From positions 1-33,215 of the forward strand of contig JAJYIU010000012.1 of the NCBI GenBank assembly GCA_021789895.1: 33,215 nt of DNA, in the 5' to 3' direction. The notes under the pieces were generated by a model, which was not told where the DNA came from, ran no database searches, and saw only the letters and a list, made by a program, of their open reading frames with translations. Both the position numbers and the translations under genes were made by a program. Below are positions 1,048-29,044 of the stretch, piece by piece. The DNA is from Acidobacteriota bacterium. Lineage in GTDB: Bacteria > Acidobacteriota > Terriglobia > Terriglobales > SCQP01. Position 1 is the stretch's first letter, and each line of letters starts with the position of its first letter.

Positions 1048-1062
1048 GGTTAACGGGTTTTC
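1035..1062 (+). repeat. Left REP-like end flanking the RAYT gene
   Basis: This 28-bp block consists of GGGGACGTCCTGGG followed by GTTAACGGGTTTTC. It is repeated exactly at 977-1004. It touches the stop codon of the transposase, which is read from the other strand. An inverted, slightly diverged copy lies at the opposite end of the transposase gene (1818-1846). The pair therefore looks like the two recognised ends of a REP/RAYT unit. Confidence 0.75.
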
Positions 1063-1765
1063 AGCGAAATAGCGTGAGCTGTTGTTGCTCATCTTCCGCC
1101 TTGGCTTGATTCGGAGCCTTCTTCTTCGGGCGGCCGGGACGCCATTGCCGGCCCGTGCGTTCCCGCATCTCCTCCACGAACCGCTCGTCGCCGAAGGGCC
1201 GACTTGCATACGTACAACTCCGTAGCTCATCGGCCCCCATCTCACTCTGGCCGAGGACCGCCGCCCATTCCGCTGGGCCGGCTCGCTCCCACCACTCCAT
1301 CTCCAGCAAGTGGTCCAAATCTTGCCCGTTTATATGCGCCCGCGCGCTCGACCAGCGGTAGTCCGCAGCGCTCTCCACCATCCGGGCGCGAACCGGGTTG
1401 CGCTCCACATACGCCAAGGCCCGCCAAAGGTGGATCGGGCCCAGCGCGCAGGAGAAAAACCGATTCTGCCACAAGTGCCCGCTATGCGCCCAGCGCGCAT
1501 TGGAGTATTGGGCGTAGCGGCCGTGAATCCGGCTCAGGCTGATCGCCAAGGCATCGGCCTTCAACGGAAGAATCACCAGGTGCTGGTGGTTGCTCATCAA
1601 GCACCAGCCCAACAGCCGGGCATGTTCCGGATCGAGGTGCTGGCGCAGCAGACTGATGTAGGTTCGCCGATCCTCGTCATCGAGGAAGACTTCGCAGCGA
1701 TCCACGCCGCGCTGTGTCACGTGATAGGGAATCCCGGCGACCACGCATCGATTTCGGCGGGGCAT
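1061..1765 (-). CDS. REP-associated tyrosine transposase (RAYT, IS200-like Y1 family)
   Basis: This is a single-strand-acting Y1 transposase that would bind and cleave REP hairpins. Counting from the ATG at 1765, the YHVTQRG motif is at residues 14-20 and the metal-binding HUH motif (NHQH) at 59-62. The catalytic tyrosine lies in GRYAQYSN (Y84 or Y87), followed by a GHLWQNRF block and YVERNPVRARMV. The C-terminal extension is basic and Gln-rich. Length (234 aa) and motif order fit full-length RAYTs. In-frame starts also exist upstream (ATG at 1807, TTG at 1819). I prefer 1765 because MPRRNR is the usual family N-terminus. A small inverted repeat (GCCAC/GTGGC) sits directly before this start and may limit translation. 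The gene is enclosed by inverted REP-like sequences and appears intact. Confidence 0.88.
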   Translation of the reverse strand: MPRRNRCVVAGIPYHVTQRGVDRCEVFLDDEDRRTYISLLRQHLDPEHARLLGWCLMSNHQHLVILPLKADALAISLSRIHGRYAQYSNARWAHSGHLWQNRFFSCALGPIHLWRALAYVERNPVRARMVESAADYRWSSARAHINGQDLDHLLEMEWWERAGPAEWAAVLGQSEMGADELRSCTYASRPFGDERFVEEMRERTGRQWRPGRPKKKAPNQAKAEDEQQQLTLFR

Positions 1766-1817
1766 GCCACGATTGTGGCCCGGCCTGCGCCCAAATGCCA
1801 TCCCCATCTTCGGGTAC

Positions 1818-1846
1818 AAAAACCCGTTAATCTCAGGGACGTCCCC
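1818..1846 (-). repeat. Right REP-like end, inverted relative to the left copy
   Basis: Read on the minus strand, this is GGGGACGTCCCTGAG followed by ATTAACGGGTTTT. It matches the left REP at 1035-1062 apart from a small indel and a few substitutions. GGGACGTCCC is a perfect 10-bp palindrome here. The block overlaps the extreme 5' end of the longest possible transposase frame. Only one copy is present on this side, against nine related cores on the other. Confidence 0.75.
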
Positions 1847-2507
1847 GGTTTGCTCGAAATGAAAATAGCATCGGACTTCTTAATCGCGGACTGATCCCTG
1901 TCGGCTCGCCCTCTATTCAGTTTCTTATAATGCCCACGATCAGCATATGTATAGTTCATAATCCCAGCTCACGCCGTGGCCGTGGCCGTGGCCGGTTCGC
2001 ATAAATGCGGTTGTACTTTGCCGCCAGCCACCCGCACCGAGTGAATTTCGTCCAGCTTTTATGCGGGTTTTATGCCGGCGGCCCGCCGCCCGCATCCCGG
2101 TTGACTAGTCCGTTACCCTTTGCCGCCACTGGTAAAATCCCACCTCCATGCCGCCCTTGAAAAGCATTTAACTACTGTCCAATCAGCCACTTAGCCCTGA
2201 ACTCCCGCCGTCGCGCCGCCGCCCTCGTCCGCCCTCCCGCCCGCTCTCCATGATCGAAGTTTATAGGTTAGTTACTATCCCGCCGCAGGCCCTTCCGAAC
2301 CGCGCCTGCAAGCCATAGAAATCTAAGAGAAAATATTTATTGTGATAACGTTTTATTTTTAAAATGCATGTTTCAGCGATTTTCTTGTATTTAATATAGT
2401 ATCCATGCGCAAATTCTTGGATTCGCTTATTCTTCGCTAAAATAAGCGCATATACCCATGATGTCATTGGAGTTATTCGATAAAATCCGAGTTATTAAGT
2501 GCCATGC

Positions 2508-2513
2508 TATAAT
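2508..2513 (+). promoter_or_regulatory. Possible -10 element for the ATPase gene
   Basis: A perfect TATAAT lies about 130 bp upstream of the ATPase start, inside an AT-rich tract. No good -35 hexamer is present at the right distance. TTAAGTGCCAT (2495-2505) ends two bases before it, where a regulator could control the promoter. The same 11 bp occurs at 4540-4550. Confidence 0.4.
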
Positions 2514-2541
2514 GAGATTGTGGAGTCAGAAGACTCGAGCG

Positions 2542-2567
2542 CGGTGGGGGAATGGCTTCCCCCGCCG
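2542..2567 (+). promoter_or_regulatory. Strong hairpin in the ATPase leader
   Basis: An 11-bp stem with one G-U pair, CGGTGGGGGAA against TTCCCCCGCCG, closes a TGGC tetraloop. A smaller stem (GAGTC/GACTC, 2523-2536) comes just before it. Both lie between the putative promoter and the ribosome binding site. No T-run follows, so a simple intrinsic terminator is unlikely. An attenuator or protein-binding RNA element is possible. Confidence 0.45.
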
Positions 2568-2627
2568 GCGCGCGCTTGCATTGGCGTTGTCTGCGGCTGA
2601 TCGCGGTCGGCTTATAGCTCATCGCTC

Positions 2628-2641
2628 GAAGGAGTCCTTCT
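2628..2641 (+). promoter_or_regulatory. Ribosome binding site within an inverted repeat
   Basis: AAGGAG at 2629-2634 is seven bases from the ATG at 2642, one of the best Shine-Dalgarno sites in the window, and it fixes this start. It is embedded in GAAGGA-G-TCCTTC, so it could pair with the bases just after it and be partly hidden. Confidence 0.6.
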
Positions 2642-4456
2642 ATGTCTGCCACGCCCGTTTCCCCCTCGCCCGCTCCCCCCGCCACTCCGCCCGCTTCGTC
2701 GCAAGGCTGGCCGCCAACTCCGCCCGATCCCGCTGCCCCTTACGACCCGGCCGACCCCATGCCCTGGCTGCGCGATCCGGAATTGTTCGATCGCAATGGC
2801 CCTGATCTCTTCGACCAGGCCGATCCGCAAACCCTGCGCGCCGCTTTGGCCGGCTTCTTGGCCCCGCCGCCCGCGGACGAACCCGAGCCGGCGTCTCCCG
2901 AAAATCTGCTCGACTTGTTGGGCAAATATCAGGCCTTTCACGACGAAAATCGCCGCCCCTTCCTCCGCCTCCTGCTCGACCCATCCCCATCCCCGCCTGA
3001 GGCCGCCCCGCCCGCCGGTGCCGTCTCGCCCGCCTCGGCTTCGCCCGGCGCTCCTGCCTCGCCTGCCGCCGCCTCGCCCCTGCCCGCACTCTCCGCCGCC
3101 GATCGCGAACAAACCGCCGTCTTCCACGCCTTGCCGCTCGCGGAAGCCGCCCCGCTCCTGTCCCGTCTGCATTACCTCTCCGCCGGCGCGCTGCCACCCC
3201 AGCCTTTGCTCCGCCGCTCCCTGGCCTTGCTGCGCCTGGAGGCCCTCCAGCCCTCCGCCGAGCGTCCCGTCTTCAACCGCTTTGCCATCGTCAATGGCGT
3301 TGGCTGGCTCGATCTCTGCGACCGCCGCGGACGCGCCGTCGAGCTCGCCCCCGGCCGGTGGAGCGTTTATCAGAATCCCGCCCCCCTCTTCCTGCGCTCC
3401 CGCCATCAGCTCCCGCTCCCCTTCCCCCAGTGCTTCCTCCCCGACCCCGCGCAAAACGCCCGCCAGATTGACCGCCTCCGCCCCTTCCTGCCCGCTCTCT
3501 CCGCTCCCGATTGGCTCCTGCTCCTCGCCTGGCTCGCCGCCTGCTGCCTTCCCAGCTTCCCCCGCCCGCTGCTCTGCCTCCTCGGTCCTTCCGGCTCGGG
3601 TAAATCCACCCTCGCCCTCCTCCTCCGCCGCCTGCTCGACCCCAGCCGCCGTGAATCCCTCCCGCTCGCTTCCCCTGCCGCGCTATCCCAATCGCTCCAC
3701 GATTACGCCTTGCCCATCTTCGACCACCTCTCCCCTCTCGCCCCCGCCCAGCTCGATCGGCTCTGCCGCGCCGTCTCCGGCGATTCCCTCGCCGTCCCTC
3801 AGCCCGATGGAGATTTCCAGCTCTTCCCCTTCCGCCGCCCCATCGTTCTCGCCGCCCGTGAACTCCCCTCCCATGCCCCCGAATTCCTCGACCGCGCCCT
3901 CATCCTCCCGCTCCCGCCCCCCGGCCCTGATCGCCTCTTTATCGAAGACGCCTATTGGACTAACTTCTATTTCCTCCGCCCCCGCCTGCTCGGCGCCCTG
4001 CTCGATCTGGTCTGCCAGGCCCTGCCCCATTACCAGGCCCGGGCTCAAAAAAATTCGGAAGCCCTTGCCCATGCCCAAACCGTCCCCTCGCTTCCGCCCG
4101 CCCTCGCCCGCTGGCCCGCCTTCGCCGCCTGGGGTGCTGCGGTCGCGGCCGTCCTCGAGCTTCCTCCCGACGCCTTCCCCTCCGCCTTCGCCGCCCAGGC
4201 CGCGCGCGTGCGCGACTCCCTGCTGGAAGTAGAGCCGCTCGTGGATTCCCTGCTCGCCCTCCTCGCCCGCCAGCCCCGTTGGCAGGGCGCCGCCGAAGAC
4301 CTCCTCGCCGCCCTCGATGCCCCCGCCTCCCGCTCGGCCGTCATCGCTCTCGGCATCCAGCTCCGCCGCTTGCAGCCGATCTTCGCCGCCTGCGGCGTCC
4401 GCCTCGGCTTTTCCCGGAATAATGGCAAGCGCTTAATCAGCCTCGAAATGCAATGA
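2642..4456 (+). CDS. Primase-helicase-type ATPase from a mobile element
   Basis: This 604-residue protein has a Pro/Ala-rich N-terminal third (about residues 1-150). A region resembling the pre-ATPase domain of phage and integrative-element replication ATPases follows (VNGVGWLDL and a PLPFP motif). The P-loop is GPSGSGKST at 315-323. A Walker B-like strand (LPIFDHL, D361) and an RRPIVLAARELP strand come next. EFLDRALILPLP then supplies a likely arginine finger. The family is related to D5/SF3-like helicases and usually lies beside a primase-polymerase. No primase, integrase or other element gene is present here, so the gene looks isolated. Coding-strand composition is extremely pyrimidine-rich compared with neighbours, suggesting separate ancestry. 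The start is fixed by AAGGAG. Iteron-like repeats follow directly after the stop codon. Helicase activity is inferred from family resemblance only. Confidence 0.65.
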   Translation: MSATPVSPSPAPPATPPASSQGWPPTPPDPAAPYDPADPMPWLRDPELFDRNGPDLFDQADPQTLRAALAGFLAPPPADEPEPASPENLLDLLGKYQAFHDENRRPFLRLLLDPSPSPPEAAPPAGAVSPASASPGAPASPAAASPLPALSAADREQTAVFHALPLAEAAPLLSRLHYLSAGALPPQPLLRRSLALLRLEALQPSAERPVFNRFAIVNGVGWLDLCDRRGRAVELAPGRWSVYQNPAPLFLRSRHQLPLPFPQCFLPDPAQNARQIDRLRPFLPALSAPDWLLLLAWLAACCLPSFPRPLLCLLGPSGSGKSTLALLLRRLLDPSRRESLPLASPAALSQSLHDYALPIFDHLSPLAPAQLDRLCRAVSGDSLAVPQPDGDFQLFPFRRPIVLAARELPSHAPEFLDRALILPLPPPGPDRLFIEDAYWTNFYFLRPRLLGALLDLVCQALPHYQARAQKNSEALAHAQTVPSLPPALARWPAFAAWGAAVAAVLELPPDAFPSAFAAQAARVRDSLLEVEPLVDSLLALLARQPRWQGAAEDLLAALDAPASRSAVIALGIQLRRLQPIFAACGVRLGFSRNNGKRLISLEMQ

Positions 4457-4463
4457 GTCGCAA

Positions 4464-4602
4464 AAGGTCATCTCAAGGTCATCTTAGGGTCATCTCAAAA
4501 TGCAACATGGCACTAACTATGTATCTGAAAACTATGCCTTTAAGTGCCATAGGGTCATCTGTGCCATGTTTTTAGCTATACTGCGAACATTCAAATTTGA
4601 AT
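4464..4602. repeat. Iteron-like repeats and palindromes after the ATPase gene
   Basis: GGTCATCT occurs at 4466, 4477 and 4488, an exact 11-bp period close to one helical turn, with a fourth copy at 4553. ATGGCACT (4507-4514) and AGTGCCAT (4543-4550) form an inverted pair, and GTGCCAT recurs at 4561. A perfect 14-bp palindrome, ATTCAAATTTGAAT, lies at 4589-4602. TTAAGTGCCAT at 4540-4550 is identical to 2495-2505 upstream of the ATPase. The arrangement resembles replication-origin iterons or a cluster of operators. Its function is inference. Confidence 0.6.
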
Positions 4603-5072: not shown

Positions 5073-7928
5073 ATGAAGCGGCGTGAATTTCTGAGCGCGG
5101 CGGGCGGGACGGGAGCCAATCTGGCGCTGTCCACCGCCTGGTCCCGGGGCGTCGCGGCGCCCTATCGCATCACCGTCCGCCGAACGGGGGCATCCGCCGC
5201 GGGCGAGGCCTCGGCGGATTTGCCTTCCGGCGAGCCGGCAGCGCCAAGCGGCGGCGCCGCCCCGCTGCAGCTCGCCTCCAACGTGGCCCTGGCCTCGGGC
5301 GCGCCCCTGGGCGGGCTGGGCGCCGGCTCGGTCGAGTTGCGCCCCGACGGCTGCTTCCACGATTGGGAAATCATGAACACCGGACGCTGGGCGGCCGCGC
5401 CCCCGCCCCCGGCGAGCGAGCGCGCCCAGCCGCCGGTTGCGCCCCACCTCGAGTTCCTGCTGCGCACCGCCCGCGCCGGCGCGCCGCCGCAACTGCGCCG
5501 CCTCTACCTGCGCGCCCGCGAAAACGATCTCTACTCGCTCGCCTACGCGCAAGACGTCGAAGCCATCGAATACGAGGCCTGGTTCCCGATGATCGGGCTG
5601 CGCTACCGCGACCGCACGCTCCCGGTCGAGGTGAGCGCGGCGGCGTTTTCGCCCTTCTTCCCCGGCCATGCGCGCGCCTCCGCGACGCCCGGCTTTCACC
5701 TCGTTTTTACGCTGCATAACCGCTCGCGCCAGGCGGTGGAAGCCTCGCTGCTCGCGGCGCTCGATAACCCCATCGTCTCGACCCTCGCCGATCGGCGGCT
5801 GCGCAACACCGTCGCCCGCACTCCCGCCGGCGCCCGGCTGCTGCTCGCCTCTGAGGCGGAGCCGGAAAACCGCGGCGACCTGGGCAGCCTTTGCCTTTCC
5901 GTCGCCGGCGGCGAGCCGTCCTGGATCAGCGGTACCTTCCGCCAGTACGCGCTGCCCGGCTTGTGCCGCTGGAACAGCCGGCGTATGTACTGGATGCTGC
6001 TCGACCTGCTGCAGGATTTTTATCGGACCGGGCGGCTGCCCAACGCTGGCGCCGGGCGCGATCCGGCGAGGCTCTTCCAACTGCGCGGCGCCGCCATTGA
6101 CGCGCTTTCGCCGGCGGATATGGCGAGCTGGCTCGAGCGCCTCGCCGCCGACGCGCTCTTTCGCCGCGTGATCGAGGAAGCGCGCGCGGCGGCGCCGGCG
6201 CACGCCTTGAGTGCCGAGTCCATGCGGACGCTGCTCCATGAAATCGCCGCCAACCTCGATGGCGACCTGGCCGGCGGCGAACGCCGGCACTCGACCTGGG
6301 GCGCGGCGGCGCTCGCCTCCACGCTGCGGCTCGAGCCGGGCGAGCGCGTCCAGGCGCGCTTCACCTTCGCCTGGCATTTTCCCGATCACCGCAATCAGCA
6401 CGGCGAAGACATCGGCCATCGCTACGCCGCCTGGTTCGCCGACGCCGCCGCGGTCAATGCTTACCTCGAGCGCAATTACGCGCGCCACCGCGCGCGCACC
6501 GAGGGCTTCGCGCGCACCTTGGCCGAAACCTCGCTCGGTGCCCCGCTGGCGTTTGCCTGGTCGAGCCATCTCGGCACGCTGATCAAAAATTCCTGGTGGA
6601 GTCGGGACGGCCATTATGCCATCTGGGAAGGCCTGGGCTGCTGCGGGCTGAGCACCACCGATGTGGATTACGACGGCAGCTCGTCCATCGTCGCCCTGTT
6701 TCCCGAGTTGAAGACCCGGCAGATGCGCGACATTCTGCGCTTCCAGAACGCCGCCGGCCAGGTGCCGCACAACTATAGCCGCGGCTTCGATGCCGTGGAC
6801 GAGAGCGGCTATGGCCGGGTGGACATGAATCCGCAGTTCGTCATGATGGTCTGCCGCGACTATCTCTGGACCGGCGACCGCGCATACCTGCGGGCGGTGT
6901 GGCCGGGGGTGCTGAAAGCGATGGAATATACCGCCTCGCTCGACACCAACGGCGATGGTTTGCCTGATAAAAACTGCGGCTTCCAGACCTATGACGCCTG
7001 GCGCATGCGCGGCAGCCCCTCCTACATCGCCTCGCTCTGGATCGGTGCGCTGCGGGCGGTGGTGCGGCTGGCCGGGGATTTGCGCGATCCGGCCGCGGCG
7101 CGCCGCTGGTCGGGCTGGCTGGAAAAAGCCTCGGCCAGCTACGACCGCCTGCTCTTCAACGGCGAGTATTACAGCCTGTGGGTGGATGACACCGCGGCGG
7201 CGGGCGGGGTCAAGCGCGACGAGATCTGCATGAGCGACCAGATGAGCGGCGAATGGTTCAGCCGCCTGATGGGCCTCGCCACGACCACCGATGCCGCCCA
7301 CCTGGCGCGCGCGGCGGAAAGCGTCTGGCGAAATAATTTCAGCCCCGAAACCGGACTGCGTAACGCCACCGCGCCGCGCGGCGGCCCGGGGCTGCTGGTG
7401 ATGGATAATCTGCAGGCGGGCGGCGTCTGGTCGGGCATTGAATACGCCTTCGCCTCGTTTTTGATGGACCACGGCCGCTATGCCGACGGCGCCCGCATTG
7501 TCGCCGCCGTCCACCGCCGCTACCTGCGCGCCGGCATGCCCTGGAACCACGTCGAGTGCGGCACGCATTACACCCGCGCGATGAGCAGTTGGACGACGCT
7601 GCTGGCGGCCACCGGCTTCAAGCCCGACCGCCCGGCGCGCGCGCTCACGCTGCTGCCTGCGGTGCCGGACGATTTCCATGCCCCCTGGGTGACCGCCGAA
7701 GGCTATGGGCAGATTCGCCGCCGCGGCGGGCGGCTGGCGCTTGCCTGCCGCGCCGGCAAAATCGAGTTTCAAACCCTGCGGGTGCGCGCGAACGGCGCGG
7801 CCGCGCCGCGGATTGCGCTGGCGGGAATGCCGCTCGCGATGAAAATGCGGCGCGAAGGCGAAGCCGCCCGGCTGGATTTTCCCGCGCTCGTAACCGTCGC
7901 TGCCGGCAAGACGCTGGTGGTGAGCTAA
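5073..7928 (+). CDS. Exported GH116 family beta-glycosidase (GBA2/DUF608-like)
   Basis: A 951-residue glycoside hydrolase of the bile-acid beta-glucosidase/glucosylceramidase family. The N-terminus MKRREFLSAAGG looks like a Tat signal. The N-terminal beta-domain opens with the hallmark GGLGAGS (80-86) and FHDWEIMNTGRW. In the (alpha/alpha)6 domain, WEG (E519) aligns with the GBA2 nucleophile and TYDAW (D641) with its acid/base Asp. DTNGDGLPD and the GGVWSGIEY and PWNHVECG blocks are also present. Catalysis therefore looks intact. Likely substrates are beta-glucosides or beta-xylosides handled outside the cytoplasm; the exact sugar cannot be told. A weak GGA site precedes the ATG. The gene seems monocistronic. 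The 1106-residue frame on the opposite strand is a codon-bias shadow. Confidence 0.85.
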   Translation: MKRREFLSAAGGTGANLALSTAWSRGVAAPYRITVRRTGASAAGEASADLPSGEPAAPSGGAAPLQLASNVALASGAPLGGLGAGSVELRPDGCFHDWEIMNTGRWAAAPPPPASERAQPPVAPHLEFLLRTARAGAPPQLRRLYLRARENDLYSLAYAQDVEAIEYEAWFPMIGLRYRDRTLPVEVSAAAFSPFFPGHARASATPGFHLVFTLHNRSRQAVEASLLAALDNPIVSTLADRRLRNTVARTPAGARLLLASEAEPENRGDLGSLCLSVAGGEPSWISGTFRQYALPGLCRWNSRRMYWMLLDLLQDFYRTGRLPNAGAGRDPARLFQLRGAAIDALSPADMASWLERLAADALFRRVIEEARAAAPAHALSAESMRTLLHEIAANLDGDLAGGERRHSTWGAAALASTLRLEPGERVQARFTFAWHFPDHRNQHGEDIGHRYAAWFADAAAVNAYLERNYARHRARTEGFARTLAETSLGAPLAFAWSSHLGTLIKNSWWSRDGHYAIWEGLGCCGLSTTDVDYDGSSSIVALFPELKTRQMRDILRFQNAAGQVPHNYSRGFDAVDESGYGRVDMNPQFVMMVCRDYLWTGDRAYLRAVWPGVLKAMEYTASLDTNGDGLPDKNCGFQTYDAWRMRGSPSYIASLWIGALRAVVRLAGDLRDPAAARRWSGWLEKASASYDRLLFNGEYYSLWVDDTAAAGGVKRDEICMSDQMSGEWFSRLMGLATTTDAAHLARAAESVWRNNFSPETGLRNATAPRGGPGLLVMDNLQAGGVWSGIEYAFASFLMDHGRYADGARIVAAVHRRYLRAGMPWNHVECGTHYTRAMSSWTTLLAATGFKPDRPARALTLLPAVPDDFHAPWVTAEGYGQIRRRGGRLALACRAGKIEFQTLRVRANGAAAPRIALAGMPLAMKMRREGEAARLDFPALVTVAAGKTLVVS

Positions 7929-12943: not shown

Positions 12944-15463
12944 ATGCCTGACGACAATCTGACACTACCCCTCGGCGGCGGCGAAGACGGCGGGAAAAAC
13001 CTTCTGCCCATCAACATTGAAGAAGAGATGCGGCGGTCCTACCTGGACTACGCCATGTCGGTGATCATCGGCCGGGCGTTGCCGGATGCGCGCGACGGCT
13101 TGAAGCCGGTGCATCGGCGGATTCTCTACGCAATGTTTCGCGAAGGGCTGCTGTCGAACAAGAAGTATTCGAAGTGCGCCGGGGTAGTGGGCGAGGTGCT
13201 GAAGAAGTACCATCCGCACGGCGACATGGCGGTGTACGATGCGCTGGTGCGTATGGCGCAGGATTTCAACCTGCGCTACCCGCTGATTGATGGCCAGGGG
13301 AATTTCGGCTCGGTGGACGGGGATCCGCCGGCAGCCTACCGCTACACCGAAGCGCGGCTGGCGAAGATTGCCGAGGAGATGCTGGCCGACATCGACAAAG
13401 ACACGGTTGACTTCACGCCGAACTTCGACGAATCCACCGAGGAGCCGGTGGTGCTGCCGACGCGCATCCCGAACCTGCTGATCAACGGGGCCGATGGGAT
13501 CGCGGTGGGCATGGCGACCAAGATTCCGCCGCACAACCTGACCGAAGTGCTGGACGCCACGCTGCTGCTGCTGGAGCAGCCGAACGCGCCGCTGGAGGCG
13601 TTGATGCAGCACGTCCAGGGGCCGGATTTCCCCACCGGCGGTGTGATCTACGGGCGCGAAGGCATCCGGCAGGCCTACACCAGCGGGCGCGGCAGCTTCA
13701 TGGTGCGCGCGCACTCGCACGTGGAGACGCTGGCGAAGGAGCGCGAAGCGATTGTCGTCACCGAAATTCCCTACCAGGTGAACAAGGCGCGGCTGATCGA
13801 GCACATCGCTGCGCTGGTGCAGGAAAAAAAGATCGAAGGCATCAGCGACCTGCGGGACGAGAGCGACCGCGATGGCATGCGGATCGTGCTCGAGTTGAAG
13901 CGCGGCGAGCAGGCGGAAATCATCCTCAACCAGCTCTACAAGCACACCAATTTGCAGACCAGCTTCGGGATGATCCTGCTGGCGGTGGTCAACGGACAGC
14001 CGCGCGAGCTGGGGCTGGCCGACGCGCTGCGGCGCTTCATCGAGCACCGGGTGGACGTGGTGCGGCGGCGCTCGGCCTACGAGTTGGCGAAGGCGCGGGA
14101 GCGCGAGCACATCCTCGAAGGCTACAAGATCGCGCTCGATCACCTGGACGCGGTCATCAAGCTGATCCGCGCCTCGGCCAGCCCGAAGGAAGCGCGCGAG
14201 GGCCTGGTGGCCAAGTTCGCGCTCACGGAAAAGCAGGCACAGGCGATCCTCGATTTGCAACTGCACCGGCTGACCGGGTTGGAGCGGCAGAAGATCTTGG
14301 AGGAGCTGGAGGAGATACGCAAGCGCATTGCGTACCTGGAATCCATCCTGGCGAGCGATAAGAAGCTGCGCGGGGTGATTCGCGACGAGCTGAAGGAAAT
14401 CCGCAGCGAGTATGGCGGGGAGAAAGACCCGCGGCGGACCCGGCTCGAAGACCAGGCGCGGGAACTGAGCCTGGAAGACCTGATTCAGGAAGAGACGGTG
14501 GCGCTGACCATCACCCATTCGGGCTACCTCAAGCGCACCGCGATTTCCACCTACCGGCACCAGCGGCGCGGGGGCAGCGGGCGGATCGGCGCGGGCACGC
14601 GCGGTGAAGACTTCGTCGAGCACCTGTTCATCACCTCGACCCACAGCTACATCCTGGTCTTCACCCAGACCGGACGGGTGTACTGGCTCAAGGTGTATGA
14701 AACGCCGGACGCCGCGGCCAACGCTAAGGGCAAAGGCATTACCAACCTGGTCAATTTCCAGCCGGGCGAAAAGCACTGCGCCCTGCTGCCGGTGCGCGAC
14801 CTGAACCGCGAAGACGAAACCATCGTGATGGTGACGCGCAACGGAGTGATCAAAAAATGCGCCGTCAGCGACTTTTCCAACCCCCGCTCGGGCGGGATCA
14901 TCGCCATGGGAATCGAGCCCGGCGACTACCTGGTGCAGGCCAAATTGACCGACGGGAAGAGCGAAATCTTCCTCGCCAGCGAACAGGGCAAGAGCATACG
15001 CTTTTCGGAAAGCGGAGTGCGGGCGATGGGCCGCAATGCCTACGGCGTGCGCGGCATGACGCTGGCGGAAAACGACCACCTGGTGGGAATGGAGATCGCG
15101 CGCCACGACAAGCAGTTGATTCTGAGCGTGACCGAAAACGGCTACGGCAAGCGAACCCCGCTGGGCGCCTACCGGCTGCAAAGCCGCGGCGGCAGCGGGG
15201 TGATCAACATCCGCACCTCGGAGCGCAACGGCCGGGTGGTGGGCGTGATGGCGGTGGAGGAAGACACCGAGATCATGATCATCAGCCAGCAGGGTAAGAT
15301 CATACGCGTGGGCACGGCGGAGATACGGGAAGCGGGACGGGCGACGCAGGGAGTGCGGCTGCTGCGACTGGATGAAGGCGACCGGGTGGCGGCGGCCAGC
15401 GTAATCCCTCCGGAGGAAACGAACGGCAATGGGCCGCTGCAGCCCGAGTTGGGCGGCAAGTAG
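12944..15463 (+). CDS. gyrA: DNA gyrase subunit A
   Basis: The 839-residue breakage-reunion subunit of gyrase, which introduces negative supercoils together with GyrB. Visible landmarks are [19 protein letters not shown] near residue 34, the catalytic tyrosine Y134 in YRYTEAR, and [18 protein letters not shown]. The C-terminal beta-pinwheel contains the gyrase-specific box QRRGGSG, so it is GyrA rather than ParC. The quinolone-resistance segment reads [10 protein letters not shown] (90-99). M95 falls at the position of E. coli S83, while D99 keeps the equivalent of D87. No clear Shine-Dalgarno precedes the ATG. The gene diverges from the DUF1800 gene across about 185 bp. Confidence 0.97.
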
Positions 15464-19675: not shown

Positions 19676-22438
19676 TCAAGCGAGGGTGACGGGGTCCACA
19701 TCCACCACCAGGCTGGCCGGGGAAAGCGCCAGCGCGGCGGCAAGCGGCCGCAAGCGCTGCAAGAGCTGGCGCAAGGCGGCGCGCCGCGGCGATTTCAACA
19801 ACAACTGGTAGCGGAACTCGCGCTTGATGCGGGCGACCAGGGCGGGAGCGGGACCGAGGATGCGGACCGGCGGCGGCGCGCCGGCGGCGGCCTGGGCGGC
19901 ATCGAGACCGCGGCGCAGGCGCAGGGCGGCCTCGCGCACGGGCTCATCCTCCGGCCCGCGCAGTTGCACCAGGGCCATGGCGGCGAAGGGAGGCCAGGCC
20001 AGTTGGCGGCGGAAATGGCTTTCGCGCTCCCAGAACGCGGGGTAATCGGCGGCGGCGGCGGCGCGCACGGCATAGTGCTCGGGAAACAGGGTTTGCAGAT
20101 AGACTTCGCCGGGGAGGGCAGCGCGGCCGGCGCGGCCGGCGACCTGTGTGAGGAGCTGAAAAGTGCGTTCGGCGGCGTGGAAGTCGGGAAACAGCAGGCC
20201 GAGATCGGCCTGAACGACGCCGACCAGGGTGACGCCGGGCAGGTCGTGTCCTTTCGCAATCATCTGGGTGCCGAGGAGGATATCCAACTCGCCCTGACGG
20301 AAGGCGTTGAGGACCCGGGCGAAGTCGCGGCGTCCGCGCACGGTATCGCGGTCGAGGCGTCCCAGGCGGGCGGCGGGAAAGAGGCCGCGCAAGTGTTCTT
20401 CGACCTTTTCGCTGCCGGCACCGAGAAAATAAATGTGCTCGCTGGCGCAGGCGGGACAAACGCGCGGGGTGGGCTGGGAAAATCCGCAGAGGTGGCAAAG
20501 CAGGCAACCGGAGCGCTTATGCCAGGTCAGCGGGGCGGAACAGTCGCGGCAGGCAAGGGTCTGTCCACAGGAGCGGCAAAGCGCCACCGGGGCATAGCCG
20601 CGGCGATTGATCAGCACTAGCGACTGCTCGCCGCGATCGAGGCGGGCGGCGAGCGCGTCGCGCAGCGGCGGCGAGATCACCAGTTCGGGGCGGGACTGGC
20701 CGGGCGCGGGCGCCTCCGACTGCGCCTGGCGGCGGAAGATCTCGCGCATGGCAACCAGCTCGACCCGCGGCAGCGGACGGGCATCGACGCGTTGGGGCAG
20801 CTCCAGCAGGCGGTATTTGCCGGCGCGGGCGTGGCGATAGCTTTCGAGCGAAGGCGTGGCGGAGCCAAGCAGGGCGACGGCACGCTGGCGGCGGGCGCGC
20901 ATGAGGGCGAGATCGCGGGCGTGATAGCGCGGCGAGGTCTGCTGCTTAAAGGAGGCATCGTGCTCTTCATCCACGATGACCATGCCCAGATCGGGCAGGG
21001 GAGAAAAGACGGCAGAACGGGTGCCGATGACCAGGCGCGCTTCGCCGCGGCGGGCGCGGTACCACGCGGCGCTGCGCTCGGCCGGGCCGAGTGCGGAATG
21101 CAGGATGGCGACGCGGCCGGGGAAGGCTTGCTCGAAATCGGCTTCCAGGGCGGGGGTCAGACCGATCTCCGGAGCCAGCAGCAGCGCCGAGCGTCCGCGC
21201 GCCAGGCAGGCAGCGATGGCCTCGAGATAGACCGCGGTTTTTCCGCTGCCGGTCACGCCGTGGAGTAAAAACACCGGCGGGGCCGGCGCGGCGCCCGAGG
21301 CAGCGGCGGCGGCGTTGCGAACGCCGGCTGCAGAGGCGGCAGTGTTGGAGCCGGCGGGGGCGAGAGCGCCCATGGCGCAGGTTGGGATGGCGGGATTATC
21401 GGCAGCGGCGTCGAGCGCGGCGACGATGCTTTCGAGCGCAGACGATTGGGCGGAATTGAGCCGGGTGATGCGCGGGCGCGCGGCCCATTCCGGCGGAGCG
21501 GGCGCCAGCGGACGCGGACAAGCGGAAATGGCTTGGCGGCGCAGCAGCGCGCGCAGCACGGCGCGGGAAGCGAGCGGGGCGAGCGCGGCGGCGCTGAGCT
21601 CTCCGCCGGCGGCTTCGAGGGCAGCAAGGACGCGGGCGCGGGCGGGGGAGATTCTACCGGTAGCCTTTCTGGAAGATTCTTCCCTGCGGGGGAGGCTCGC
21701 CAGCCGGTAATAGATTTCTGAGGGAGCGGCACGGCGGCGGGGGGCATCGTTGCGGCACTCGATCCAGCCACGGCGCAGGGCGCGTTGCAAATCGAGCGGG
21801 CGCAAGCCGCGGTGGCGCAGAATGCCGGGCAGTTGCAGACCGCGCTCGGCCGCGCGCAGGCAGGCAAGTTCTGGATGAGCCGGCGCGCCGGCGGAAGGGA
21901 GCGCGGGCAGAGCCATCTGCGCCGGAGCGGCGGCGGCGCGCAGGCGCTCGATCTCGGCGCGGCCGGCATCGGTCAGCGCCAGGCGGCGCGGGCGTATGAG
22001 GTCGGGAGGCAGGGCGCATTGCAATATCTCGCCCAGTCCGGCCTGGTAATAATCCGCCGCCCAGCGCAGCAGCTCGAACAGCGTGGGATCGAGCAGCGGT
22101 TCCCGATCGAGCAGGCAGGCGACGGGACGCACCTGATCGCGGCGCAGGCCGGAGGGAAGCTCCGTCGCAAGCCCGAGCAAGATCCCGACGCGATGCTGCT
22201 TGCGCCACGGCACCAGCACGCGCAAGCCGGGCACGGGCTCCAGGTCGAAACGATAACTATAGGTAAAGCTGTCGCCGTGCGCGGCGGGCAAGGCCACCTG
22301 CACCAGGAGGGATTCGGCGGAATCTGCAGCCGCCGCCGCCGCGGGCGGGCAAGCGCCCTGGTCGCGTGCCGGCACGGGAACCGTGGGACTGGCGAGATCA
22401 TGTATGCGGCCGCCTGGCATAGCGATATTTTGACTCAC
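19676..22438 (-). CDS. priA: Primosomal protein N' (replication restart helicase PriA)
   Basis: A 920-residue superfamily-2 helicase that reloads the replisome at stalled forks. The N-terminal DNA-binding domain begins VQVALPAAHGDSFTYSY. The P-loop is HGVTGSGKT with GSGKT at 397-401, and the helicase motifs VIVDEEHD, LLGSATPS and GTQMIAKGHD, QVAGRAGR are present. Four CxxC pairs (CRSC, CRDC, CHLC, CPAC) bind two zinc ions. PriA is usually 730-820 residues; the excess comes from an Ala/Pro-rich N-terminal leader and an Ala-rich insertion just before the P-loop. The first start is a GTG at 22438, with an ATG at 22420 in frame. The gene diverges from the exopolysaccharide operon, and GTTC-N7-GTTC repeats lie just upstream. 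Confidence 0.95.
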   Translation of the reverse strand: MSQNIAMPGGRIHDLASPTVPVPARDQGACPPAAAAAADSAESLLVQVALPAAHGDSFTYSYRFDLEPVPGLRVLVPWRKQHRVGILLGLATELPSGLRRDQVRPVACLLDREPLLDPTLFELLRWAADYYQAGLGEILQCALPPDLIRPRRLALTDAGRAEIERLRAAAAPAQMALPALPSAGAPAHPELACLRAAERGLQLPGILRHRGLRPLDLQRALRRGWIECRNDAPRRRAAPSEIYYRLASLPRREESSRKATGRISPARARVLAALEAAGGELSAAALAPLASRAVLRALLRRQAISACPRPLAPAPPEWAARPRITRLNSAQSSALESIVAALDAAADNPAIPTCAMGALAPAGSNTAASAAGVRNAAAAASGAAPAPPVFLLHGVTGSGKTAVYLEAIAACLARGRSALLLAPEIGLTPALEADFEQAFPGRVAILHSALGPAERSAAWYRARRGEARLVIGTRSAVFSPLPDLGMVIVDEEHDASFKQQTSPRYHARDLALMRARRQRAVALLGSATPSLESYRHARAGKYRLLELPQRVDARPLPRVELVAMREIFRRQAQSEAPAPGQSRPELVISPPLRDALAARLDRGEQSLVLINRRGYAPVALCRSCGQTLACRDCSAPLTWHKRSGCLLCHLCGFSQPTPRVCPACASEHIYFLGAGSEKVEEHLRGLFPAARLGRLDRDTVRGRRDFARVLNAFRQGELDILLGTQMIAKGHDLPGVTLVGVVQADLGLLFPDFHAAERTFQLLTQVAGRAGRAALPGEVYLQTLFPEHYAVRAAAAADYPAFWERESHFRRQLAWPPFAAMALVQLRGPEDEPVREAALRLRRGLDAAQAAAGAPPPVRILGPAPALVARIKREFRYQLLLKSPRRAALRQLLQRLRPLAAALALSPASLVVDVDPVTLA

Positions 22439-27765: not shown

Positions 27766-29044
27766 TGGGCTGACGCTGAGCGCGATCGGGCGGCCCTATC
27801 GCGAACGCGGCTTTCGGCTGCTGGCTTGGCTGGCCTGGATTGCGCTGTGGGGGGTGAGCTTGTCGCCGCAGGAGAACCTCTGGGCGGCATGGGGGCGATT
27901 CGCGCTGCTGGGCGGCTTGAGCGTAATGGCGCTGAGCTGGGCCGATCTTTACAGCATGTTGGCGCGGCGCGACTGGCGCCGCATGCTGGAGCGTCTATTG
28001 CTGGGCATGGGCGCGGCCTGGTGGCTCTGGAGCGGGCTGGAGCTGATCTGGCCGGCATTATGCCTGGGGCGGGGTCGGATGCTGGCGGGCGCGGCGATGG
28101 GGTTGGCGGCGATGATGGGCATGCATGGCCTGGCGGGCTGGGGCGGGCAGCGGCGCAAGCTGGCGCTGGTGGGCGAGAGCGCGCTCTGGCCGGCGCTGGA
28201 GCGCGAGTTAGCCGGGCACGCGGAATGGGGCTGGCGGGTGGTCGCGCGCGCGAGTTGGCCGGCCGCGCAGGAATGGCTCCGGCTTTGGCGGCAGTTGGCC
28301 GGCGCGGGAGCGCGCCATCTGGTGCTGGCGCAGCCGCTGCCGGAAGCCTTGCGGGCGGAGCTGACGGCGGCCGGCGCGCGCGTGCACCCGGCCGGCGAAT
28401 TCTTCGAGCAAGTCACGGGCAAAGCGGCGCCGACGCGGGTGCTCCTCCTGCCCGCGCGACGCCGCTGGCGGCGCTGGCGGGATGCCGCACTGGCAGCGCT
28501 GGCGCTGGTCCTGCTGGCCCCGCTGCTGGCGCTGGTGGCGGCACTGGTGGGGCTGGATGCGGGGCGTCCGATTTTATTCCGCCAGCGCCGGGTGGGCGAG
28601 CGCGGGCGGGTTTTCGTGCTGTATAAATTCCGCACCATGCGGCGCTCGCCGGGCGATCCGGAGGCCGGCTGGCGGCCGGCGGTCAAAAACGACCCGCGCT
28701 GCACCCGGCTGGGGCGCTGGCTGCGCCGCTGCCGGCTGGACGAACTGCCGCAGCTCTGGAACATTTTGCGCGGAGAGATGAGCTGGGTGGGCCCGCGCCC
28801 CTTTGCGGAGGAGCAGGAGCGGAGGTTGGCAGCCCGCCTGCCGGGGTACCGTTTACGCTGGCAAGTGCCGCCGGGCGCGACCGGGTGGGCGCAAATCCAC
28901 CGCGGCTACTGCCACTCGCTGGACGACAACCGGGAAAAACTGGCTTACGACCTGTTCTATATCCGGCACGCGAGCTGGCGGCTGGATTTGCTCATTCTGC
29001 TGCGCACGCCCCGCGTGCTGCTGCTGTCGCGAGGCGGGCAATGA
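27752..29044 (+). CDS. Undecaprenyl-phosphate sugar phosphotransferase (initiating transferase)
   Basis: A 430-residue polyisoprenyl-phosphate hexose-1-phosphate transferase of the WbaP/EpsL type. Four hydrophobic segments occupy about residues 20-130. A degenerate Rossmann-like middle domain follows (KLALVGES...). A fifth hydrophobic segment leads into the catalytic domain with ILFRQRRVGERGRVF, YKFRTM, RRCRLDELPQLWNILRGEM, SWVGPRP and ATGWAQI. It loads the first sugar phosphate onto the lipid carrier at the inner membrane and so starts each repeat unit. Its ATG lies within the end of the kinase-like gene, and its stop overlaps the next start as ATGA. Confidence 0.9.
   Translation: MAAIDGLTLSAIGRPYRERGFRLLAWLAWIALWGVSLSPQENLWAAWGRFALLGGLSVMALSWADLYSMLARRDWRRMLERLLLGMGAAWWLWSGLELIWPALCLGRGRMLAGAAMGLAAMMGMHGLAGWGGQRRKLALVGESALWPALERELAGHAEWGWRVVARASWPAAQEWLRLWRQLAGAGARHLVLAQPLPEALRAELTAAGARVHPAGEFFEQVTGKAAPTRVLLLPARRRWRRWRDAALAALALVLLAPLLALVAALVGLDAGRPILFRQRRVGERGRVFVLYKFRTMRRSPGDPEAGWRPAVKNDPRCTRLGRWLRRCRLDELPQLWNILRGEMSWVGPRPFAEEQERRLAARLPGYRLRWQVPPGATGWAQIHRGYCHSLDDNREKLAYDLFYIRHASWRLDLLILLRTPRVLLLSRGGQ

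Follow-up and report, generated by a model that had tools for sequence, protein, structure and literature searches.

A likely primase-less initiator-origin module embedded in an acidobacterial chromosome

In this study, we analysed positions 1 to 33,215 of contig JAJYIU010000012.1 (assembly GCA_021789895.1) from an Acidobacteriota bacterium of the Terriglobales (SCQP01), and this whole stretch of 33,215 nucleotides is referred to as the window. One of its genes encodes an ATPase of 604 residues, which is preceded by an AT-rich leader with a predicted promoter and followed by a cassette of short direct and inverted repeats (Table 1). The window is otherwise ordinary chromosome, with gyrA at 12944-15463 and priA at 19676-22438. 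An earlier note, made from the letters of this DNA, had described a lone replication-type ATPase flanked by a shared 11-bp motif and followed by iterons with an 11-bp period, and had proposed a minimal or decayed replicon or an autoregulated single-gene unit. The core idea of that note holds and has been strengthened; the surprise is the presence of several distinct initiator-origin pairs on one chromosome, together with cassettes that have no gene.

The cassette directly 3' of the ATPase gene is built on GGTCATCT, copies of which start at 4466, 4477 and 4488 with an exact period of 11 bp, and again at 4553. The motif ATGGCAC is located at 4507 and GTGCCAT at 4544 and 4561, a perfect 10-bp inverted repeat is formed by AACATGGCAC (4504-4513) and GTGCCATGTT (4561-4570), and a 14-bp palindrome, ATTCAAATTTGAAT, occupies 4589-4602; the direct repeats, inverted GTGCCAT motifs and palindrome named in the earlier note are therefore all in place. 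The palindrome of 4589 was not found in the sister copies of the cassette described below. GGTCATCT is the sole exact 11-bp-spaced triple in the window, and 8-mers occurring at least four times within 130 bp are confined to the cassette, an unrelated minisatellite (784-1048) and, weakly, a GC-rich stretch at 28463-28589. When the 300 bp past the stop codon were dinucleotide-shuffled 200 times, no 8-mer ever reached four copies. TATACT is located after the cassette, and a search for an intrinsic terminator found none.

A structure model of the ATPase was built from an alignment of 15 homologues (predicted local distance difference test, pLDDT, 76). The predicted layout comprises a disordered N-terminus (residues 1-160), an AAA+ domain (about 269-430) with the Walker A motif at about 315-322, a helical lid after the AAA+ core and a C-terminal winged helix (about 546-603), the last being composed of a beta strand at 546-550, helices at 551-557 and 564-583 and strands at 586-593 and 596-603 (pLDDT about 86-92). 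The top fold match of the model was SaPI5 Rep (7om0_D, Z 17.9, 367 residues over model residues 80-597), followed by the poxvirus D5/E5 helicases (Z about 16), PriRep1 (7pds, 13.1) and other SF3 primase-helicases, and a profile match to a 573-aa protein of the Streptomyces plasmid pFP11 extended over 419 columns (E 3e-45). Searches of the ATPase against Pfam, PHROGs and NCBIfam returned only sub-threshold P-loop matches, and the PADLOC defence models matched at the P-loop level only (best E 5e-4 over 30 residues). A Prim-Pol domain was recognised in the relative L078 and at sub-threshold level in that of the Methanothrix plasmid pH6Ac, and a separate Prim-Pol gene adjoins the pFP11 relative; in a domain scan of the window proteins, the ATPase had no Prim-Pol domain and no adjoining Prim-Pol gene. 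Judged by its profiles and predicted structure, the ATPase is an SF3/D5-type initiator helicase of the SaPI Rep/Cch2/pFP11 kind. Predicted fold, profiles and repeat geometry all bear out the proposal of a replication-type helicase followed by origin-type iterons.

The word "lone" has to be given up, as the genome of the window (G000) contains four paralogues of the ATPase, on contigs C40, C77, C1 and C7. The same-genus sister genome G001 (Acidobacteria MAG YP1.bin64) contains about six homologues and two genomes of a related genus contain three to six each, while no homologue was detected in the remaining 37 genomes of that search, apart from one weak match in the P-loop range. Relatives were found in 14 of 395 other sampled genomes from the rest of the phylum, mostly in single copy. 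A tblastn search with the close paralogue on C77 identified relatives on small plasmids of Streptomyces, Methylobacterium, Methanothrix and Stanieria; no match to this paralogue in the plasmid records exceeded about 30% identity, and the window protein had no match in the phage records. The cassette pattern was absent from two distant viral contigs.

To score repeats beside the close homologues, the 300 bp past each stop codon were used, and segments taken from within each gene and from upstream of it served as controls. A significant 3' repeat family was found in 12 of the 19 close homologues with enough sequence, and the control segments, subjected to the same count, stayed below the significant level; L043, with another, longer repeat past the stop, is a thirteenth case. 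The repeats include GGGTGCCGTTT (C77; three copies at 11 bp plus inverted copies), GTGACATC (G001:C7; three at 11 bp), the GTGACAGTTG type (G001:C13; three at 10 bp), TTGCCGCCAC (G001:C43), TAGTGACGG (G001:C45), TGCCGTCC (G001:C31), TACTTCCACC (G001:C21) and CGGGTGCC (G004:C72 and G008:C85; two plus two inverted). The innermost sites face inward in all 12 cassettes examined, around a spacer of 27-37 bp in ten of them (the exceptions being 44 and 114 bp) whose AT fraction is 0.53-0.90, compared with 0.34-0.49 for the loci, at 38-153 bp past the stop. In the orthologous pair G000:C1 and G001:C43, the layout was kept and the letters were changed. At the sequence level, the paralogous cassettes thus have a common geometry and different repeat letters. 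When a sequence model of the window-type cassettes was run on the sister genome, its top match (E 3.6e-4) was the cassette accompanying the G001:C7 paralogue, which independently confirms that the cassettes of different paralogues are related.

The position 3' of the gene also extends to more distant relatives. Repeats occur at the same place in other acidobacterial families, some of them within the coding tail and with a period of 9 or 12 bp, and nine and seven copies lie 3' of the gene in an S. melanogenes plasmid and in pFP11, respectively. The C-terminal coding tails of L081 (G110:C43) and L083 (G182:C27) hold the iterons, so that origin-like repeats also encode protein repeats. In the related homologues L037 and L043, ATTTGTCACC...GGTGACAAAT sites lie upstream rather than 3'. 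Plasmid pH6Ac (L052) carries six perfect 11-bp direct repeats of GTTCGAGCAAA about 600-670 bp before its 1124-aa rep gene (upstream of 1608); going by these positions, the iterons of pH6Ac are likely to lie upstream rather than downstream of rep.

Identity of the C-terminal domain tracks iteron similarity across 15 homologues (Mantel r 0.35, p 0.013), a correlation that is confounded by relatedness. L036 and L039 are 79% identical in their cores and 23% identical in their C-terminal domains, and their iterons are different. Two G001 contigs share the first 127 bp of the gene body, after which the last 40 or so residues and the iterons differ. Identical 127-bp ends were present on C7, C9 and C13 in G001 and on C10 and C30 in the genome of the window; since 127 is a k-mer length used by assemblers, these shared ends mark branch points, and a shared body with different tails could partly reflect a strain mixture (two genes or two strains). 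The ratio of nonsynonymous to synonymous substitution rates (dN/dS) in the AAA+ core was 0.23-0.36 among orthologues or close paralogues, from which the proteins are considered to be under constraint.

Window-type cassettes without an open reading frame (ORF) are present at three or four other loci of the genome, with four copies on C38 (a 135-bp tandem array), two on C36, one on C30 (joined to C10 via a 127-bp overlap) and a partial one at the contig end of C54. No ATPase gene accompanies the copies of C38, C36 and C10/C30, which retain the AT-rich leader, the TATAAT promoter, the GAGTCAGAAGACTC dyad (nearly intact in C10) and a boxA-like GCTCTTTGACAATT. In an alignment of eight copies, the iterons, the inverted site and a CAT-N-TTTTT end are nearly invariant and the spacer varies; homology between copies stops at the T run after the second site set. 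Four cassette copies were folded as RNA (z -0.7, -0.4, -2.6 and -0.4), three of them no better than their shuffles, and Rfam recognised no family, only the transfer-messenger RNA (tmRNA) next to the C36 copy. About 80 bp separate this leader-plus-cassette of G000:C36 (L026:2001-2740) from the tmRNA gene at its 3' end, an adjacency that by itself proves nothing. A relic at G000:C47:48555-48605 is limited to the initial portion of the AT-rich leader and lacks promoter and cassette.

The TATAAT -10 box, in the context GCCATGCTATAAT, is kept in the C36 and C38 copies, and GTGCTATAAT is kept in C10 too. The 11-bp motif said to flank the gene, TTAAGTGCCAT, occurs at 2495-2505 and 4540-4550, the sole two window matches with one mismatch or fewer allowed (shuffle mean 0.10; none of 100 shuffles with two). 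Both copies are therefore present, yet a significance of the flanking is not supported, because the sister leaders do not keep the upstream copy and no exact copy lies upstream of any other paralogue with clear iterons. At the position of the upstream copy, the homologous leaders of the ORF-less copies read AAGATGCCATGCTATAAT, AAGATGGCGTGCTATAAT and GATTGCCATGCTATAAT; by this leader consensus the upstream TTAAGTGCCAT is a peculiarity of the window copy, and it is probably part of the promoter. Autoregulation through an upstream iteron was considered and rejected, as the other paralogues with clear iterons have no exact upstream copy but scattered one-mismatch matches only. The boxA-like GCTCTTTGACAATT follows the hairpin in the ORF-less copies (L007:4700-4725, L026:2300-2325 and the end of L097) and has been lost from the window copy; its sequence suggests an untranslated transcript needing antitermination. 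Ahead of the start codon, most genus g4 paralogues have in common a promoter-proximal block resembling CCCCCTTTAGGGGAATTGCGC, which differs from the leader of the window genus (upstream regions of G004, G008 and G001: L033, L034, L037, L038, L040, L043 and L047).

Table 1. Features of the ATPase locus, with positions in the window.
Feature	Position	Strand	Basis
AT-rich leader; 70-74% identity to the C10 and C38 leaders of the same genome, partial matches in C36 and C47	2241..2506	+	sequence comparison
Upstream TTAAGTGCCAT, overlapping the promoter spacer	2495..2505	+	motif search
TATAAT -10 box, predicted from consensus match only	2508..2513	+	consensus, sister leaders
GAGTCAGAAGACTC dyad in the predicted 5' untranslated region; kept in C36 and C38, nearly in C10	2523..2536	+	sister leaders
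SF3/D5-like AAA+ initiator helicase (predicted), 604 aa	2642..4456	+	profiles, predicted structure
Three direct iterons GGTCATCT, 11-bp period	4466..4495	+	repeat scan, alignment
Inverted site AACATGGCAC	4504..4513	-	motif search, alignment
AT-rich spacer, 27 bp, 70% AT vs 34% for the locus; candidate unwinding element	4515..4541	.	AT content
Second site set: AAGTGCCAT, GGTCATCT (4553), GTGCCATGTT, then T run	4542..4570	+	alignment of copies

Neither a primase nor an integrase was found among the scanned window proteins, as the earlier note had stated, and no partition gene lies nearby in the window. With regard to mobility, the leader plus cassette is multi-copy without the ORF, as examined in a test for a transposon or miniature inverted-repeat transposable element, and synteny with G001 is broken. 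In G001, no ATPase lies upstream of the orthologue of the GH116 neighbour (5073-7928), and no element follows the orthologue of the gene adjoining the C36 copy; the neighbour genes are not syntenic on both sides in that genome, which yielded no clean empty site. A Y1 transposase gene (IS200-like/RAYT-type; 1061-1819, minus strand) adjoins a dense array of GGAAAACTGG and GGACGTCC with a period of about 10 bp at 774-1060, and from its sequence this resembles a REP/RAYT pair without any relation to the cassette. A CRISPR or REP/RAYT source of the cassette repeats was rejected, the transposase having its own, differing array (784-1048) without resemblance to them. A further repeat, CGCCTAAAAGTAAAAGCGGC, has 365 occurrences (two mismatches or fewer) in G001, for example at L044 and L036, against two in the genome of the window, and on these counts it is a dispersed repeat specific to one species, whose copy number exploded in that lineage.

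Several known replication systems have comparable parts. The origins of phage-inducible chromosomal islands (PICIs) always have two iteron sets around an AT-rich region 3' of rep (PMC6092414), and the Rep of Staphylococcus aureus pathogenicity islands (SaPIs) recognises through its C-terminal domain the iterons directly downstream of its gene (PMC7581432). In SCCmec, the C-terminal domain of Cch2 binds the origin and the iterons are 3' of the gene (PMC7581432), the RepA proteins of pFP1, pFP11 and pWTY27 bind their own iterons (PMC3583192), and the minimal replicon of pRN1 is reported to require sequence downstream of the gene (PMC4234260). The window protein resembles SaPI5 Rep in its predicted D5/SF3-type fold with a C-terminal DNA-binding domain, and the origin candidate of the window, like those of SaPIs and PICIs, lies directly 3' of the gene with two iteron sets around an AT-rich region. 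Unlike SaPIs and PICIs, the window unit has no primase domain or primase gene, integrase, xis, Stl-type repressor or packaging genes, and units of its type occur several per chromosome, with ORF-less origin copies in addition. It shares protein homology and iterons 3' of the gene with pFP11, one of the Streptomyces theta plasmids (pFP11/pWTY27) using RepA and iterons, whereas the pFP11 gene (about 27% identity) is plasmid-borne and next to a Prim-Pol gene; the 573-aa pFP11 protein may be the published RepA. Cch2 is likewise a chromosomal helicase with iterons 3' of its gene, but the primase/polymerase CCPol-MP is encoded alongside it, and its element also has ccr recombinases. The archaeal pRN1 (orf904) and pH6Ac also have a Rep helicase, that of pH6Ac being a detectable relative; both are plasmids, however, and the pH6Ac protein has the sub-threshold fused Prim-Pol domain. 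By analogy, the window unit would function like the replication initiator and origin (rep-ori) of a SaPI or plasmid; it is not a PICI, because primase and integrase were tested for and are absent.

Since the same parts occur in the same order as in the SaPI, PICI and RepA systems, we consider it likely that window 2508-4576 is a compact, primase-less rep-ori module of plasmid or phage-satellite type embedded in the bacterial chromosome. Architecture, homology, predicted fold, conserved geometry and selection on the protein were observed, while DNA binding, melting, replication and action in trans are expected of the window protein from the known systems. The iterons directly 3' of the gene would be bound by the C-terminal winged helix of the encoded protein. 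Because the two site sets face inward across an AT-rich spacer (about 30 bp), helicase rings would be positioned to both sides of the melting point, where the protein may melt the spacer and load itself. Primers would come from host DnaG or another primase, which is proposed because none is encoded nearby. Specificity may be held by the C-terminal domain and its cognate iterons changing together, and such joint change would allow several paralogous modules to coexist in one genome. The ORF-less leader-cassette copies may be internally deleted or ori-only derivatives, and thus possible targets of the window protein in trans.

Several observations weigh against this rep-ori module. No primase lies in or adjoining the unit, and without tight regulation a firing chromosomal origin would come at a cost. 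The contig-average coverage in the G001 metagenome assembly is 3.8-4.3 for all five unit-bearing contigs that have a listed value, and so gives no sign of amplification on a large scale. The repeat count was non-significant in six close homologues (L010, L011, L037, L040, L045 and L047), although L010 has a clear inverted pair. Homologous loci without repeats had been named in advance as evidence that would refute the original idea; the idea withstood this check, as homologues have a cassette at the same place, with the reservations that the letters differ between paralogues and that L011, L040 and L045 have no clear cassette. The unit may be active, a tamed incompatibility device or a silent relic.

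A decayed remnant, that is, an integrated plasmid or satellite that lost its primase, integrase and replication ability, would account for the missing primase, integrase and partition genes and for the housekeeping context with gyrA and priA, and several units do stop at assembly breaks. The frames are nevertheless full-length and open, purifying selection on the AAA+ core argues against a dead remnant, and the cassettes have been maintained with cognate iteron change in several paralogues, so that we regard this explanation as unlikely. Slightly less probable still is a chromosomal device for incompatibility or immunity, in which the protein and its arrays would titrate or handcuff incoming replicons with matching iterons and the ORF-less arrays would serve as decoys. 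The several orthogonal pairs per genome and the ORF-less arrays of up to 4 x 135 bp would suit such a device, as would the fact that replication of the units is without evidence; against it, no matching invader appeared in the phage records or, beyond about 30% identity to the close paralogue, in the plasmid records, and no known defence family gave a convincing match.

The two other explanations have very little probability. In a regulatory unit, the protein would bind the 3' repeats and the promoter copy and control its own or downstream transcription with no role in replication, consistent with the overlap of the upstream TTAAGTGCCAT with the promoter spacer and with TATACT after the cassette. 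The autoregulated unit of the earlier note is weak, however, because neither the sister leaders nor other paralogues conserve the upstream motif; moreover, the cassettes are 3' of the gene, the downstream genes differ and an AAA+ helicase would be unusual as a repressor. We regard regulation as highly improbable. Marginally more improbable is an RNA element, in which leader, hairpin and cassette would belong to a functional non-coding RNA that had captured the ATPase between them. In its favour, the ORF-less copies preserve the leader and promoter together with the GAGTCAGAAGACTC dyad and the boxA-like GCTCTTTGACAATT, but cassette folding stays within shuffles in three of four copies, no Rfam family was recognised and other paralogues have cassettes without this leader.

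Beyond the single locus, a tentative possibility, clearly less probable than the rep-ori module itself, is a class of chromosomal solo rep-ori units, in which initiators without primase or integrase multiply in one bacterial lineage with their own origins, diversify into groups of orthogonal specificity as C-terminal domain and iterons change jointly, and spawn ORF-less, origin-only copies acted on in trans. Such units might copy themselves selfishly or, equally tentatively and as part of the same proposal, might serve the host by local gene amplification or by exclusion of matching plasmids. Text searches of open-licence papers found no description of multiple chromosomal initiator-origin pairs or of gene-less cassettes. 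If the rep-ori interpretation is true, initiators and origins of plasmid or satellite type would be multi-copy residents of chromosomes, with several mutually orthogonal pairs per genome, and the pairs of C-terminal domains and iterons would provide a natural series for reading the recognition code of SF3 initiators. It would also raise the question of whether a chromosome tolerates or even uses several extra origins of foreign type, and whether the ORF-less arrays answer the window protein in trans.

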